From Thermoplasma sp. (GTDB taxonomy: Archaea > Thermoplasmatota > Thermoplasmata > Thermoplasmatales > Thermoplasmataceae): DNA of 40,232 nucleotides. The stretch lies in NCBI RefSeq assembly GCF_008709555.1, contig NZ_VYIJ01000013.1, positions 1 through 40,232 of the forward strand, given 5' to 3'. Made by a program: the position numbers and the translations under genes. Below are positions 19,477 through 30,805 of the stretch, piece by piece; positions within the stretch are counted from its first letter, which is position 1; each line of letters begins with the position of its first letter. The notes beneath the pieces are model-generated. The model worked only from the letters and a program-made list of their open reading frames with translations. It was not told where the DNA came from and ran no database searches.

Positions 19477-20406
19477 ATGAAGATACTGATCATAGTACCT
19501 GATTTTCTTCCGCTGGATCAGATAAAGGCAGCCGTATCGGCATTGACACCGGACATCGATATCAGGACTGATGCGAACTTCGATAGGAGCGATGCTGAGA
19601 TCCTCATCGTGACCACGTTCACGCCTGTCAACGAAGACCTGATAAAGAGGATGCCGAAGCTGAGGTTCGTGCAGGTGGCAAGCATCGGCTACAACAATGT
19701 TGACCTGGACCTCATGAGAAGGAACGGCATAGCCGTTTCTAACATACCAACAGCAAGCGCCGACAGCGTGGCAGAGCATGCGATCTCCATGGTGCTCTCT
19801 ATCCTCAAGGATCAGCGCTTTCTGGACTCCGAGATAAGGGCTGGAAGATGGCCGAAGATAACGAGGTCATCTGACCTCATGGGCAAGACGTTCGGCATAG
19901 TGGGCATGGGATCCATAGGCCGTGCCCTTGCTGCTAGACTTCTGCCATTCAAGGTCGCGATAATATACAATGACGTCAGGAGAATGAGCGAGGCTGAGGA
20001 GGAGGAATACGGCTGCACGTACGTTGATCTTGACAGGCTTCTTTCAGCTTCCGATATAGTATCCGTACATGTGCCGCTCAATGACAGTACACGGCATCTC
20101 TTCGATCGCAGAAAGTTCGACCTCATGAAGGATGGATCCATATTCATCAACACTTCGAGAGGCGAGGTTGTGGTGGAGAAGGACCTGGTGGAAGCGATAC
20201 AGAAAAAGGGCATACGCGCTGGCCTGGACGTATTCGAAAGGGAGCCTCCGGATCCCGAATCGCCATTGCTGCGGCTTGAAAATACCCTGCTCTCGCCACA
20301 TATAGCTGGAGTTACCGTGGAGAGCCAGATGCGTTTCTTCCGCGAGACAATTGCAAACGTGATGAGGTACATGCAGGGATACGACCCAAACTTCAGGGTG
20401 ATATGA
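19477..20406 (+). CDS. D-isomer-specific 2-hydroxyacid dehydrogenase
   Basis: A 309-residue NAD(P)-dependent dehydrogenase of the D-2-hydroxyacid/3-phosphoglycerate dehydrogenase superfamily. It has the dinucleotide motif TFGIVGMGSIGRALAARL, the catalytic Arg in FINTSRGEVVVEKDL, the Glu in GLDVFEREPPDPESPLL and the His in LSPHIAGVT. It lacks a C-terminal ACT regulatory domain, so it is of the short type. Possible substrates are glyoxylate, hydroxypyruvate, 2-ketoacids or 3-phosphoglycerate. ATG 19477 gives a leaderless message from TATATATATT. Its TGA stop (20404-20406) is in the same frame as, and immediately precedes, the coding sequence of the TPP enzyme. The two probably form one operon, and the dehydrogenase may act on a 2-oxoacid or aldehyde linked to the decarboxylase. 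Confidence 0.88.
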   Translation: MKILIIVPDFLPLDQIKAAVSALTPDIDIRTDANFDRSDAEILIVTTFTPVNEDLIKRMPKLRFVQVASIGYNNVDLDLMRRNGIAVSNIPTASADSVAEHAISMVLSILKDQRFLDSEIRAGRWPKITRSSDLMGKTFGIVGMGSIGRALAARLLPFKVAIIYNDVRRMSEAEEEEYGCTYVDLDRLLSASDIVSVHVPLNDSTRHLFDRRKFDLMKDGSIFINTSRGEVVVEKDLVEAIQKKGIRAGLDVFEREPPDPESPLLRLENTLLSPHIAGVTVESQMRFFRETIANVMRYMQGYDPNFRVI

Positions 20407-20433
20407 ACGAAGGGACACGAGATCTTCGGCAAG

Positions 20434-21945
20434 ATGTTGGAGGACCTGAACCTCCTGCCCGTATTCGGCAATCCCGGAACAACGGAGATCCCCATGCTGA
20501 CAGACGTTGATGATTATGTTCTGGCCCTGCATGACGGGGTGGCTGCCGGAATAGCGGAAGGATACGCCATCTCGTCCGGCAAACCGTCGATCGTCAATCT
20601 CCATACGGAACTCGGTATTGGGAACGCCATGGCCTTCCTGATAACTGCTTCGAGGAACAGGACTCCGCTAATAGTCACGGCAGGGCAACAGGACCAGCGG
20701 CATCTGGCCTATGATCCACTTCTATCAGGCGATCTAACTGGCCTTGGGGATAGATTCGCTAAGTACAGCTATGAGATCAGGAGACCATCAGACATCGCCT
20801 ATGTTATGAGAAAGGCCTATCAGATAGCTGAAGAACCGCCGAAGGGACCGGTGTTCCTATCGTTTCCGATGGATGTGATGGAGTCGGATGGAAACTACTC
20901 GAAAGAGGGGGTAGCAATATCGGAGTATGAGGTGGCCGACAGCGAGGACGTGCGGAAGGTGGCCGAGGCCATAATGGAATCCAATAACCCCGCAATAGTT
21001 TTTGGATCGGAGATAGACGAGTTCAGGGCCTTCGATGAGGCCGTTGAATTTGCCAGGAAACTGGGATGCCCGGTGTACTCAGAGCCCCTTGGAAACAGAT
21101 CGAGCTACCCTTCCGACGATCAGCAGTATGCCGGTGAACTCTTTCCAGCTGAGATACTGATATCACTGCAGCTCATGCAGAATGATCTCATCCTGTTCAT
21201 TGGTTCTGATCTGACGCTCTACCCGTACACCATCGATACTGTTCTTCCCGGGATAAGGAAGATATCAATAGGCATGAACAGTACGAGGAGGATCGGCGAA
21301 ACCTACAGGGCGAATCCAAGGACATTCCTCAGGAAGATCATACCCATGGTGCAGCGAAAATGCAGCTTCGCACGAGGGAAGGACTATATGAAGTTCACGG
21401 ACGCAATGCGCGAGAAAAAAAGGATGGGATACAGATACGTGTCATACAGGATATCGAAGTACTTCGGCGATTATGCGCTGGTAGACGAGGCAATTTCCAT
21501 GTCAGAGACCCTTCGCCATTACTTCGGGTACAGACCAAATGGCTATTTCACGGCAAGGAGTGGACAGATAGGATGGGCCCTGCCAGCATCAATAGGCATG
21601 TCCATGAACGATCCCAGAGTCCTATCAGTCATCGGGGATGGATCGCTGATGTATTCCATCCAAGCTTTATGGACAGCCAGGCATTATGGGGTACCGCTGA
21701 AGATGATAATTCTGAGAAACAGTGGGTACAACATACTGAGGAGCTATGCCATGTCCTATTATCCAAGCCTCAAGGATGCAGACTTCCTGAGGCCTGAACC
21801 AGACATCGAAGGCGTAATATCATCCTATGGAGTGGATGTCCGCACGGCTGATTCCGATCTCAGGAACCTGGAATGGCTCAGATCCGGATCAGACCAGAAG
21901 GCACTGGTGATCGATGTTGACAGATCGATACCGCGCATGTTCTGA
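20434..21945 (+). CDS. TPP-dependent 2-oxoacid decarboxylase, benzoylformate decarboxylase-like
   Basis: A thiamine diphosphate enzyme of the POX/benzoylformate decarboxylase family. From the ATG at 20434 it has 503 residues. The N-terminal Pyr domain shows VFGNPGTTEIPML and NLHTELGIGNAM (His57 at the benzoylformate decarboxylase active-site His position). The C-terminal PP domain shows the TPP/Mg motif VIGDGSLMYSIQALWTA and ILRNSGYN. Two oddities stand out. The codons between the dehydrogenase stop and ATG 20434 still read as a family-like N-terminus (TKGHEIFGK) but have no start codon. And the conserved Glu that activates TPP is Asp34 here. The product could be a decarboxylase, carboligase or oxidase. 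Its stop lies in a hairpin shared with the next, convergent gene. Confidence 0.82.
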   Translation: MLEDLNLLPVFGNPGTTEIPMLTDVDDYVLALHDGVAAGIAEGYAISSGKPSIVNLHTELGIGNAMAFLITASRNRTPLIVTAGQQDQRHLAYDPLLSGDLTGLGDRFAKYSYEIRRPSDIAYVMRKAYQIAEEPPKGPVFLSFPMDVMESDGNYSKEGVAISEYEVADSEDVRKVAEAIMESNNPAIVFGSEIDEFRAFDEAVEFARKLGCPVYSEPLGNRSSYPSDDQQYAGELFPAEILISLQLMQNDLILFIGSDLTLYPYTIDTVLPGIRKISIGMNSTRRIGETYRANPRTFLRKIIPMVQRKCSFARGKDYMKFTDAMREKKRMGYRYVSYRISKYFGDYALVDEAISMSETLRHYFGYRPNGYFTARSGQIGWALPASIGMSMNDPRVLSVIGDGSLMYSIQALWTARHYGVPLKMIILRNSGYNILRSYAMSYYPSLKDADFLRPEPDIEGVISSYGVDVRTADSDLRNLEWLRSGSDQKALVIDVDRSIPRMF

Positions 21946-26621: not shown

Positions 26622-27356
26622 TCAATGGATCTTGCGTATCAGTATGTCTTCGTTCGGGTTGTCCTGTATCATCTCTATGCGTCCCTCATGGTGGAGGAAG
26701 AGCGAATATAGAAAGAACGAGGCCTGATCTCTGCGGTCGTGCCCCCAGACCTCTGACATGCGCATGGTATCTGATGGGTATCCGTTTATTATGCTCATTA
26801 CCTTTTCGATCTGTTCCTCAGGGCTCTCGCTGTTCAGGCGGTCTATTGAGAACGATACTGGCAGCGTTTTCTGCCTGACGTGCTGTTTTCTGGCCAGGTT
26901 GTGCCTCACCTGGTCTATGACCTCTATGAGCGATACTGGCCTCCTGAATGGTACTGTTATAACGGGAGTGACGTCTACAGGCTTAATATCCCTCGGTATC
27001 TCCACCGGGTATTCCTCAGGCACATCGTCCTCTACGCACTGTTCTTCCCTTACAGACCAGTCAGATTTCCTGCGCAGGACATACCATGCCTCTGCCAGCG
27101 CCCTTCCAGCGAATTGAAAATCGATAGTTTCACCCTGCGTGAAATTCATCATGATCTGTGAGAACTTTGTGAGATCCACGTTCCATGGGTCAATGAAACC
27201 ATCTGCGCACATCTCCAGTATCTTAATGACAGCAGCCTTTGATGGATCCACGACCTTTCTGGATCCGAGAGAACGCTCAAGATCCCTGTAGTACTCCGCC
27301 TGGTCCTCGTCCGAAGCCTGCACTATCAGGTCCTCTATGACCTCCTCAACATTCAT
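26622..27356 (-). CDS. scpA: Segregation and condensation protein A (kleisin)
   Basis: A 244-residue ScpA kleisin, which bridges the two head domains of SMC to form the condensin-like ring used for chromosome compaction and segregation. The N-terminal domain (about 35-110) with SKAAVIKILEMCADGFIDPWNVDLTKFSQIM is the typical SMC-neck-binding kleisin helix region. A variable acidic/Pro linker (about 108-140) follows, and the C-terminal part with QASFFLYSLFLHHEGRIEMIQD is the winged-helix domain that binds the SMC cap. Its ATG overlaps the smc stop (ATGA, 27353-27356), so translation is coupled to smc. No scpB gene is seen in this window. It is the second gene of the smc operon. Confidence 0.9.
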   Translation of the reverse strand: MNVEEVIEDLIVQASDEDQAEYYRDLERSLGSRKVVDPSKAAVIKILEMCADGFIDPWNVDLTKFSQIMMNFTQGETIDFQFAGRALAEAWYVLRRKSDWSVREEQCVEDDVPEEYPVEIPRDIKPVDVTPVITVPFRRPVSLIEVIDQVRHNLARKQHVRQKTLPVSFSIDRLNSESPEEQIEKVMSIINGYPSDTMRMSEVWGHDRRDQASFFLYSLFLHHEGRIEMIQDNPNEDILIRKIH

Positions 27357-30300
27357 GATACCGCCTCCAGCGAACCATCAAAACGGCCCGTAAAGACGAA
27401 GGATTCGCCATTCACGCTGGTGACACCTATGGCATTTGACGCATAGCTGAACACCACAGACTTGAGTGATATGACAATCGTCTGCGATTCTCCGGCGTTC
27501 TGACTTATCATCTTTATCATGTTCTCCGCGTTGTACCCGTCCAGGAACATGTCAACCTCGTCCAGGAAGTATATCGAACTGGGCATCAGTATCTGCACTG
27601 CAGTTATGAAGGATAATGCCGCAACGCTCTTCTCGCCTCCACTGAGCGCCTGTATCTTCACGGTTGCTTTGTCCTTGGGCGTGACACTCACCTCTATGGA
27701 CGAGGTTAACGGATCCGAACCCACCATGAGAAGGTTCGCCGTACCTCCATTTATTATGCCGTATACGTAGTTCATCTTCTCGCTTATCTCGGTAAAGGTC
27801 TTCATGAAAACCTCGCGCTTCCTATTGTTTAGCATCGCCGTGGTCTCCTCGAGAGCCTTCTTCTCGCTGACCAGCTGATTATGCTTCTTCTCGTACTGCT
27901 CCAGATCCCTCGACGCCTCATCGTACTGTTCCGGTGCCGCATGGTTTATCTCACCCAGCTCGAGTATGGATCTCTCTATCTCCTGCTTCATGGCCTGCAG
28001 ATCGCCCATAACGATGTTCGATCCGCTGTACGATGAGAGGTCCCTATCCAATGCTGATATGCGCTCATCCAGTACGCCTACCTTTATCCTGAGATCGTTT
28101 TTCATCTCATTCTTCAGGTCTATCGCGGCTTTGGCATCGCTTATGCCATTCTCGATCTCCCTCAACTGTTTGTCTGCATCCCTGACCTGTGCCGAAAGAT
28201 CGCTGTATCTTCCCTCTAGATCGTTCAGCATGTACTGATACTTCTTCGCCTTCTCCTCAAGTTCCCTCTTCTTGGCATTGGCTTCGTCTATCGCAGCAAG
28301 TATCGCGTTTTCCTGAAGCTTCGTCTCAACCATCTGATCCTCGGCGTGCTTCCTCTCGTTGATGATCAGGTCTCTCCTGCTGATGGCCTGGTTGAGGTCG
28401 GCTATGATAGCATCGAGCTCTGTTCTGGCCGAATTCATCTCATTGGAAATATCGCCCAGAGTCCTGAAGAACTCCGGATCGATCCTGTCATAAAGATCGT
28501 TCAAGGCCTCCTGATACTTGTGCAGATCCAGAGTCTTCTCATCTATGGTCTTTGACATCTCCTCGATCCGCGATCTCTTCATGGCTATGTCGGCATCGAT
28601 CCTGGCGATCTCAGCCATCACATCGGCAAGTTCCTCCCTGGACCTCTCCGCCTCCTTCCTGATCATCTCCTGCTCCTTCATCAGTTCGCCGGATCTCCTA
28701 GATGCTTCACTCATCTCGCTGAATGCCTGGTCCATCTCCTTCTTTATCCTCGATCTCTCATCGATTAGGGATGAGAGCTGAACCTTCATTCCCTCAAGAT
28801 CGTGCTGTATCCTCATGGCTGAAGCGTAGTCAGAAGCATAATTCCTGTATCCTCCCGTTATAGAACCGCCTGGATCGAATATATCGCCGTCAAGCGTTAC
28901 GAGGCGGAATACACCCATGATCCGTCTGCCCGCATCCATATCCTGGACAAGTATCGTATCGCGTACGGCATAATAGACCACTGACCTGTACTGATCCTCG
29001 AAGTCTATGAAGTCCATCAGCAGTCCAAGGTATCCCGGATCCTTCGATATCCTGCTGGTATCCCTCTGAGCCGGTGGTTCCCGCATCTTGTTCAGCGGCA
29101 GAAACGTCATCGGCGCGATCTTCTTTTCCTTAAGCAGGTCTATGCACTCCTTGGCAACCCCGTCGTCCATTACCACGACGGCGTTCAGCCTTCCTCCGCC
29201 GGCGCTCTCCACGGCCTTCACGTATTTCTCGCCGTAGGATATCAGATCGCGGACAAGGCCAACAACACCCTTCACGTTTTCCTCAAGCATCTTAACGTTC
29301 CTGACATACTCCGGAACCCTGCTTGAAGCATTCCTGGCCGAGGCCTCCTTCTCGCCGATCTCGCTCTTCAGGTCTGATATCCGATCGTTGATCTGATCGT
29401 ACTTAGCCTTGAGATCGTAGTATCTCTTGCTGTACTTTCCCATGTCCTCAGATGTTTCCTTTGCCTTCCATTCCGACGTCTTGATCTTGAGATCCAGATC
29501 CTCCTTCCTCTCTTCCAGGCCCGCTTTTTTCTGCATGAGGGCCGCAAGATCAGCATTTATATCCGCGGTACTGGCCTTCAGATCCTCGATCTCCTTGCTC
29601 AACGCCTCAATCTTATCCTGGTATTCCTTTGATTTTTTCCTCGTCTCTGCAGCATCCACAGCCTCAGCCTGTGCTCTGCTAAAAAGATCTTCATACCTGG
29701 CTTTCATCTCCGCGTATCGTGACTCAAGTTCCTTCCTCTTCGAGGTCTTTTCCTCGATCTGCCTTTCAAGATCCTCGATCTCCCGATCCAGACGATCCCT
29801 ATCGTTCTCGTATTTTGCCACTATCTCTTCCAGTTTCTCAATGTTTCTGTTCTTTTCGTCTATGGTGCCGCGTATCTTCGCTATCTCCACCTCAACAGCG
29901 TGCAGTTCCGACTTGACTCTGTTCATCTCTCCACTTGTGAGATCATCTATCCTCTTCGCGACCTCATCCCTCTTCGACCTCACGGTCTCGGATCTTTTTT
30001 CCAAATCGGATCTCTGATCTTCCAGCTTGGCGATATCGGCACCCAGATCAGATATCTGCCCCTCGATGGTGCGTTTCTGCCTCTCAGCGGAATTTCTCTG
30101 AGCCAGGATCTCCGTGTATTCTATATCACGTCTTTTCTTCAGCAGATCATCGTACTTCTCCTTCTTCTCCTTCTCAATTCGTAGCTTTTCCAGGTTCTGT
30201 CTCTTCTCATCTATGATCGTCTGATTTATCTCCATGTTCCTGTTTACAGCCTCGATATCCTCCTTCACCTTTTCTATCTCGCTATCAAACTGATCCACTC

Positions 30301-30775
30301 CAGATATCTTCTCTATGAGTCTTCTCCGTTCCTGGCCGGAGTACGATATGAAATCATTTATATCACCCTGAAGCACGAAGCTGTAAGTGCCGAAATTTAT
30401 ACCCATGGATGCCAGTGCATCGTCTATATCGGACAGCTTCGATCTCACGCCGTTGATGTAGTAATACGACTTTGGTTCGTCCTCGATTACAAGTTTCCTC
30501 TCTATTGTGAGCGTCCTGCCGTCATCGTTCCTGAAGGTGACTGAGACGCTGCACTCGTTACCCGATCCCTTGCTGACCAGATCGGATAGCCTGTCCGCCC
30601 TGACCGCATGTATGGATTTCGTTCCGAGAACGAAGAGCAGCATATCGCCAATGTTGCTTTTTCCACTGCCATTCGGGCCGCTTATGACGTTGAGGCCCTT
30701 CGTGAAGTTTATAACCTTCCTCTTGCGGAACGACTTAAAATTATGTGCCTCGATCCTCTCGATGTACGACGACAA
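27353..30775 (-). CDS. smc: Chromosome segregation ATPase SMC
   Basis: A full-length SMC protein of 1140 residues. Walker A GPNGSGKS stands at 33-40 after FKSFRKRKVINF; QGDINDFI (Q-loop) follows near 160. Coiled coil runs from about 170 to 490 and again from about 650 to 980, rich in Glu, Lys, Arg and Asp heptads. The hinge lies at about 495-645 with VKGVVGLVRDLI and DPGGSITGGYRN. The C-terminal head has the signature LSGGEK (about 1044) and Walker B SIYFLDEVDMFLD (about 1070). With ScpA it forms the archaeal condensin. The start is TTG 30775 because AAGGAGGT lies five bases upstream; a TATA box at 30806-30817 gives a short leader. It heads the smc-scpA operon. Confidence 0.96.
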   Translation of the reverse strand: MSSYIERIEAHNFKSFRKRKVINFTKGLNVISGPNGSGKSNIGDMLLFVLGTKSIHAVRADRLSDLVSKGSGNECSVSVTFRNDDGRTLTIERKLVIEDEPKSYYYINGVRSKLSDIDDALASMGINFGTYSFVLQGDINDFISYSGQERRRLIEKISGVDQFDSEIEKVKEDIEAVNRNMEINQTIIDEKRQNLEKLRIEKEKKEKYDDLLKKRRDIEYTEILAQRNSAERQKRTIEGQISDLGADIAKLEDQRSDLEKRSETVRSKRDEVAKRIDDLTSGEMNRVKSELHAVEVEIAKIRGTIDEKNRNIEKLEEIVAKYENDRDRLDREIEDLERQIEEKTSKRKELESRYAEMKARYEDLFSRAQAEAVDAAETRKKSKEYQDKIEALSKEIEDLKASTADINADLAALMQKKAGLEERKEDLDLKIKTSEWKAKETSEDMGKYSKRYYDLKAKYDQINDRISDLKSEIGEKEASARNASSRVPEYVRNVKMLEENVKGVVGLVRDLISYGEKYVKAVESAGGGRLNAVVVMDDGVAKECIDLLKEKKIAPMTFLPLNKMREPPAQRDTSRISKDPGYLGLLMDFIDFEDQYRSVVYYAVRDTILVQDMDAGRRIMGVFRLVTLDGDIFDPGGSITGGYRNYASDYASAMRIQHDLEGMKVQLSSLIDERSRIKKEMDQAFSEMSEASRRSGELMKEQEMIRKEAERSREELADVMAEIARIDADIAMKRSRIEEMSKTIDEKTLDLHKYQEALNDLYDRIDPEFFRTLGDISNEMNSARTELDAIIADLNQAISRRDLIINERKHAEDQMVETKLQENAILAAIDEANAKKRELEEKAKKYQYMLNDLEGRYSDLSAQVRDADKQLREIENGISDAKAAIDLKNEMKNDLRIKVGVLDERISALDRDLSSYSGSNIVMGDLQAMKQEIERSILELGEINHAAPEQYDEASRDLEQYEKKHNQLVSEKKALEETTAMLNNRKREVFMKTFTEISEKMNYVYGIINGGTANLLMVGSDPLTSSIEVSVTPKDKATVKIQALSGGEKSVAALSFITAVQILMPSSIYFLDEVDMFLDGYNAENMIKMISQNAGESQTIVISLKSVVFSYASNAIGVTSVNGESFVFTGRFDGSLEAVS

Positions 30776-30780
30776 GTCTG

Positions 30781-30788
30781 ACCTCCTT
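30781..30788 (-). promoter_or_regulatory. Strong Shine-Dalgarno site that fixes the smc TTG start
   Basis: The minus strand reads AAGGAGGT five bases before TTG 30775, a full match to the 16S rRNA tail. It makes a non-ATG start certain for a gene that is first in its operon. Confidence 0.75.
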
Positions 30789-30805
30789 ATGACATTATCT
30801 GATTG

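Follow-up and report, generated by a model that had tools for sequence, protein, structure and literature searches.

An inherited ACG codon touching the upstream stop as the probable start of a TPP-dependent enzyme gene in Thermoplasma

Introduction

Is a gene whose reading frame holds no usual start codon ahead of its conserved N-terminus a damaged gene, or an intact one that starts at another codon? The question is raised by a TPP-dependent enzyme gene in a 40,232-nucleotide stretch of DNA from the thermoacidophile Thermoplasma sp. (the window; contig NZ_VYIJ01000013.1), which belongs to a genome (G000) of 1.45 Mb in 46 contigs. A sequence-only reading had regarded the start region of this gene as damaged by one extra base, and had offered a sequencing error, a real frameshift or an ACG start as possible readings. 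Archaeal start-codon rules rest on few organisms. Here we propose, with a probability of roughly 0.85, that the gene is intact and carries an inherited ACG start at 20407 that touches the stop codon of the dehydrogenase gene in front of it. A second gene, encoding a DUF92 membrane protein, appears to follow a similar design.

Results

The locus and its reading frames

The following features of the window, all on the + strand, are considered here.
19477 to 20406, + strand: D-isomer specific 2-hydroxyacid dehydrogenase gene (Pfam 2-Hacid_dh_C, 3.4e-58; 2-Hacid_dh, 4.5e-29), probable start ATG 19477, stop TGA 20404-20406
20396 to 20402, + strand: GGGTGAT, Shine-Dalgarno-like, lying in the 3' end of the dehydrogenase gene, 4 nt ahead of the ACG
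20403 to 20405, + strand: out-of-frame ATG overlapping the dehydrogenase stop
20407 to 20409, + strand: proposed start codon ACG, with an in-frame stop directly 5' of this column in G000 to G003
20407 to 21945, + strand: TPP-dependent enzyme (benzoylformate decarboxylase-like), 512 codons from the ACG, stop 21943-21945
20434 to 20436, + strand: first in-frame ATG of the TPP enzyme (residue 10)

The two genes share one frame with no gap between them, separated only by the TGA at 20404-20406, and positions 20395-20436 read AGG GTG ATA TGA ACG AAG GGA CAC GAG ATC TTC GGC AAG ATG. The first ATG, GTG or TTG of the TPP-enzyme frame is ATG 20434, as the sequence-only reading had stated; from there back to the dehydrogenase TGA the frame holds none. 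The ATG at 20403-20405 does lie one base out of this frame, and its own frame closes after 35 codons.

The enzyme has the TPP_enzyme_N, _M and _C domains (PF02776, PF00205 and PF02775), all above the Pfam cut-offs, as in the benzoylformate decarboxylase / acetolactate synthase family. Its best-matching solved structures by sequence are benzoylformate decarboxylases (best PDB match 4q9d, 1.6e-74). Unlike a benzoylformate decarboxylase proper, it scores only 323.2 bits against the NCBIfam equivalog, whose cut-off is 493, and the substrate is therefore left unassigned. A literature search on this enzyme in Thermoplasma found nothing on point, and in the viral contigs searched for its homologues no stretch fitted the patterns.

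The segment upstream of ATG 20434

The residues in front of ATG 20434, T-K-G-H-E-I-F-G-K, had been recognized as the N-terminus expected of the family, and the alignments agree: Pfam TPP_enzyme_N is matched from residue 2 of the ACG frame, at profile position 2, and the second residue is a K or R in all 40 aligned orthologues, the third a G in 38 of them. Between G000 and its nearest relative (G001, a single-contig genome whose TPP enzyme is 79% identical), codons 2-9 show three silent changes and one replacement (Lys to Arg), and codons 10-512 show 187 silent and 105 replacement codons. An N-terminal segment that is conserved and changes mostly silently is very probably translated. If so, translation must begin at this segment or ahead of it, and the sole codon between the segment and the stop is the ACG.

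The same evidence bears on a start farther downstream, which would give a shortened enzyme from ATG 20434 in the window and, in G001, from a TTG at residue 16 or an ATG at residue 19. No usual start codon comes before ATG 20434 in the frame, but this ATG is not conserved, being GTC in G001 and GTT in two further Thermoplasma genomes (G002 and G003), and the segment that would be lost is the conserved, mostly silently changing one. Pairing with the 16S RNA is also weak there (-3.0 kcal/mol before ATG 20434, -4.0 before codon 10 of G001, -3.2 and -2.7 before its residues 16 and 19). We judge ATG 20434 to be an internal Met codon and consider a downstream start very unlikely.

The start column in relatives

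In G001 the corresponding stretch is AGG GTG ATC TGA ACG AAG GGG CAT GAG ATA TTC GGC AGG GTC, so that neither ATGA nor an ATG at the position of 20434 is present, and in G001, as in the window, ATG, GTG and TTG are all absent from the upstream in-frame stop to the conserved N-terminus. G002 and G003 (70% identity to G000, with hardly any difference between the two) read AGG GTG GCC TGA ATG AAG GGA TAC, and G004 (52% identity) reads GTG TTG TAG ATG AAG GGA TAT. The window, G001, G002 and G003 thus have a common register, with ATG in G002 and G003 where the window has ACG, and the ATGA overlap is found in the window alone among G000 to G004. We judge the ATG at 20403-20405 to be incidental, the product of an Ile codon written ATA before TGA where G001 has ATC. 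Programmed frameshifting from this ATG was also considered and is ruled out, as G001 has no such ATG.

The start column was read in 41 loci; at least six weaker family orthologues (G048, G049, G053, G054, G071 and G075) and the second TPP copies of three genomes lie outside this set. ACG stands there in five loci (G000, G001, L023, L051 and L054), directly preceded by an in-frame stop in G000 and G001 and by ATG in L023, L051 and L054. Another 35 have ATG, GTG or TTG, two pairs among these being the same protein under two names, and the remaining locus, L046, was aligned wrongly and is excluded from the tree, the Shine-Dalgarno list and the residue counts. In a tree of 40 TPP orthologues plus a paralogue, G000 and G001 form a clade (100/98), G002 and G003 stand beside it, and the four group together (100/100). 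A single T-to-C change in the ancestor that G000 and G001 share would explain ACG against ATG. The congener G004 has a TPP gene (L007) that falls outside the other Thermoplasma in this tree, which suggests a different gene history for it, e.g. transfer or paralogy.

These comparisons bear most directly on the idea that a normal coupled start, ATGACG, was disrupted by one extra base, whether a sequencing error or a recent insertion. In its favour are the ATG that overlaps the dehydrogenase stop in the window and the occurrence of ATGACG in another genus (L023, L051 and L054), where the ATG lies one codon earlier and overlaps the upstream stop. The sequence-only reading had named ATGACG in relatives as the check for an insertion, and such sequences do exist; they belong to a different clade, far from G000 and G001 in the tree and at about 46% identity, and with their ATG one codon earlier they are poor guides to the ancestor of these two. 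Against an extra base, G001, an independent genome, shares the window's register without ATGA, G002 and G003 have TGA-ATG in that register, so that none of these nearest relatives has a register free of the extra base, and the tree would demand more events for an insertion where one substitution is enough. We therefore give hardly any credence to the proposed damage, and of the readings first offered it is the ACG start that gains from TGA-ACG in G001 and TGA-ATG in G002 and G003.

Reading through the single in-frame TGA would produce a fusion of dehydrogenase and TPP enzyme, and column 1 is indeed immediately preceded by an in-frame stop in 12 of 40 orthologous loci, including G000 to G004. 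Ten of these 12 have ATG, TTG or GTG right after the stop, and the remaining 28 loci are in other registers; such a fusion is therefore not a conserved design and is highly improbable.

Shine-Dalgarno pairing

The 3' end of the G000 16S RNA, found in the genome, is GGATCACCTCC and is complementary to GGGTGAT at 20396 to 20402. With this G000 end used for both genomes, the 20 nt before the ACG give strong and well-placed duplexes of -9.5 kcal/mol in G000 and -8.9 kcal/mol in G001, which rank as tied 2nd-4th and tied 7th-15th among 40 orthologues; in each of the two genes 4 of 206 20-nt windows of the gene body reach the respective value. The conservation of GGGTGAT is not independent evidence, because GGGTG also encodes dehydrogenase residues (Arg-Val).

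Initiation at ATC 20422 (residue 6, ATA in G001) would be another non-canonical start. NCBI table 11 admits both ATC and ATA as starts, many DUF92 genes seemingly use such codons (see below), and the presence of one of them at residue 6 in both genomes counts against the ACG. The codon lies 19 nt past the Shine-Dalgarno sequence, the duplex energies before it are -3.5 (G000) and -5.3 (G001) kcal/mol, and the conserved residues 2 and 3 would be lost, which makes this start very unlikely.

Gene pairs sampled for missing starts

In the window, 33 non-overlapping ORFs have a homologue in 50 kb of G001, of which 15 were flagged; three pairs at the right edge, 37-47% identical and with no start at all in the partner frame, were discounted as chance frames. 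The TPP gene alone among the remaining 30 lacks a usual start near the conserved N-terminus. A second sample, in which contig C11 of G000 was compared with 180 kb of G001, comprised 71 pairs with 18 flagged, some of the 71 resembling chance frames (e.g. C11:8523-8702). The control detects only conserved alignments that reach at least three (window) or at least five (C11) codons upstream of the first ATG, GTG or TTG in both genomes, and flagged pairs were judged by eye from their N-termini. The roughly 100 gene pairs sampled in all yielded one further gene without a usual start, that for DUF92.

The gene at 27356-30805 of the window (- strand), with about nine conserved codons before its first usual start, was tried as a second odd-start gene and rejected, as it has an ordinary TTG start behind AGGAGG. 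This large gene, which also has a TATA-like stretch, is kept in G001 to G003.

A DUF92 gene behind a pdxS-type gene

The second gene lies outside the window on contig C11.
G000 C11:20137-20874 (= L065:137-874 and L082:1501-2238), + strand: DUF92 integral membrane protein gene (Pfam)

Its product matches TIGR00297 below the cut-off of that model. The gene directly upstream in G000 is of the pdxS type (Pfam SOR_SNZ, 3.1e-78; C-terminal end MRLQDRGW followed by the stop). In all five Thermoplasma genomes the pdxS stop TAA is followed by one base (G/A/A/G/T in G000 to G004) and then ACG, the next codon being ACT/AGC/ACC/ACC/ACA. G001 has a TTG two codons after the ACG and G004 an ATG four codons after it, and only three of the five Thermoplasma are without a usual codon there. 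The DUF92 gene, as a second gene with a non-canonical start, is put forward on these codon comparisons.

Across Thermoplasmataceae, about 30 of 70 DUF92 loci have no ATG, GTG or TTG from the stop to residue 13 (29 in one count, 30 when codons before the pdxS stop are ignored), with ATA, ATT, ATC or ACG instead, and these loci span 12 of the 19 genera of the family. The set comprises 70 of 71 family loci after L154, matched from residue 42 only, was dropped, with the fragmentary G010 not included, and residue numbers come from ungapped counting. A usual start is missing from 26 of 41 copies linked to pdxS, 4 of 29 unlinked copies and 0 of 10 copies from other families of the order, where linkage means a short C-terminal motif upstream, with pdxS confirmed by Pfam only in G000. 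All 26 linked copies without a usual start carry ATA, ATT, ATC or ACG within the first three codons at the pdxS stop, as do 8 of the 15 linked copies that have a usual codon; in interior three-codon runs the figure is 34% (1410/4200). The rows are related by descent, hence these counts carry no probability. Shine-Dalgarno energies before the first such codon range from -6.8 to -9.8 across 29 loci.

Some linked copies counted as usual (L087, L089, L110 and L111) have an ATC or ATA at the conserved place, and their TTG or GTG follows a few codons later, so the number of 26 may be too low. The frame relation between pdxS and DUF92 varies, being the same frame in L087 and shifted in Thermoplasma, which speaks against a fusion by frameshift. 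Coupling to pdxS would not be needed everywhere, since a usual start is also missing from four of the DUF92 copies that have no pdxS-type end upstream. In another genus (L099, L101 and L115) ATG stands at the same DUF92 residue number. In three g15 genomes (L155, L160 and L161) the DUF92 match crosses one TAG that is followed by ATG TTG, and this TAG probably lies upstream of the true start.

Discussion

The proposed ACG start of the TPP gene is supported by TGA-ACG being common to two species that are 79% identical in this enzyme, one of them with a single-contig genome, and by ACG in all five Thermoplasma DUF92 genes, often with ATA, ATT or ATC in other genera. Several points weigh against it. 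ACG is elsewhere a poor initiator; the ATG at 20403 in G000 would compete for the same Shine-Dalgarno sequence; among the loci read, this near-cognate codon stands with no other start next to it in G000 and G001 only; and G002 and G003, which provide the ATG outgroup, are nearly identical here and amount to one lineage.

We propose that a terminating or newly bound small subunit would be held by GGGTGAT in the dehydrogenase tail, and that initiator Met-tRNA would pair imperfectly with ACG in the P site, with a mismatch at the middle base. The product would be Met-KGHEIFGK..., at a yield reduced relative to the dehydrogenase, from a codon that would have derived from an ATG start by the transition described above. 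Ribosomes fresh from the upstream gene would probably initiate on the stop-adjacent near-cognate codon and give little downstream protein.

To our knowledge, no C-to-U mRNA editing of a kind that would make AUG from this ACG exists in archaea. The ATA, ATT and ATC starts proposed for DUF92 could not become AUG by such a change. The precedent for editing comes from land plants, where the chloroplast ACG starts of rpl2, psbL and ndhD are edited to AUG (PMC9845219); the likeness is a DNA codon ACG at the start position, and the difference is that the mRNA is edited there, whereas the ACG start here is proposed to work unedited. Editing has next to no probability as an explanation of this locus.

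Closer parallels are the conserved non-canonical starts with extended Shine-Dalgarno sequences described for Staphylococcus aureus infC (AUA), cvfC1 (AUU) and ccpN (AUA), where non-canonical starts lowered protein yield (PMC13009471). They share with the present case a weak start kept across related species, a strong Shine-Dalgarno sequence and a presumed low output; they are bacterial, whereas here a putative archaeal ACG start (ATA, ATT or ATC in many DUF92 genes) adjoins an upstream stop. A GUC start mentioned for a Halobacterium salinarum mRNA is likewise an archaeal initiation outside ATG, GTG and TTG, but on a leaderless message, in contrast to the internal, Shine-Dalgarno-bearing and stop-adjacent site considered here (PMC4574771). 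No ACG start in archaea is reported among the works found, which is weak evidence of absence as most subscription journals lay outside the search, and on other non-canonical archaeal starts and on initiation in Thermoplasma nothing on point was found.

Thermoplasmataceae may make repeated use of conserved weak starts, a suggestion based on two genes and about 100 sampled pairs. It is conceivable, at somewhat less than even odds, that members of this family routinely start some genes at ACG, ATA, ATT or ATC just behind an upstream stop and a strong Shine-Dalgarno sequence, and that these weak starts are kept by selection for a low ratio of downstream to upstream protein. If so, the TPP enzyme would be low relative to the dehydrogenase and the DUF92 membrane protein low relative to PdxS, in what would be the archaeal equivalent of weak starts of the infC type, with genes that standard gene finders would truncate or miss, and gene calling restricted to ATG, GTG and TTG would clip the N-termini of such proteins. 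The TPP-enzyme and DUF92 genes would be ready-made reporters for the start-codon strictness of the archaeal ribosome. Archaeal initiation beside a stop codon would then tolerate near-cognate starts in natural genes, and would perhaps use them to set protein ratios.
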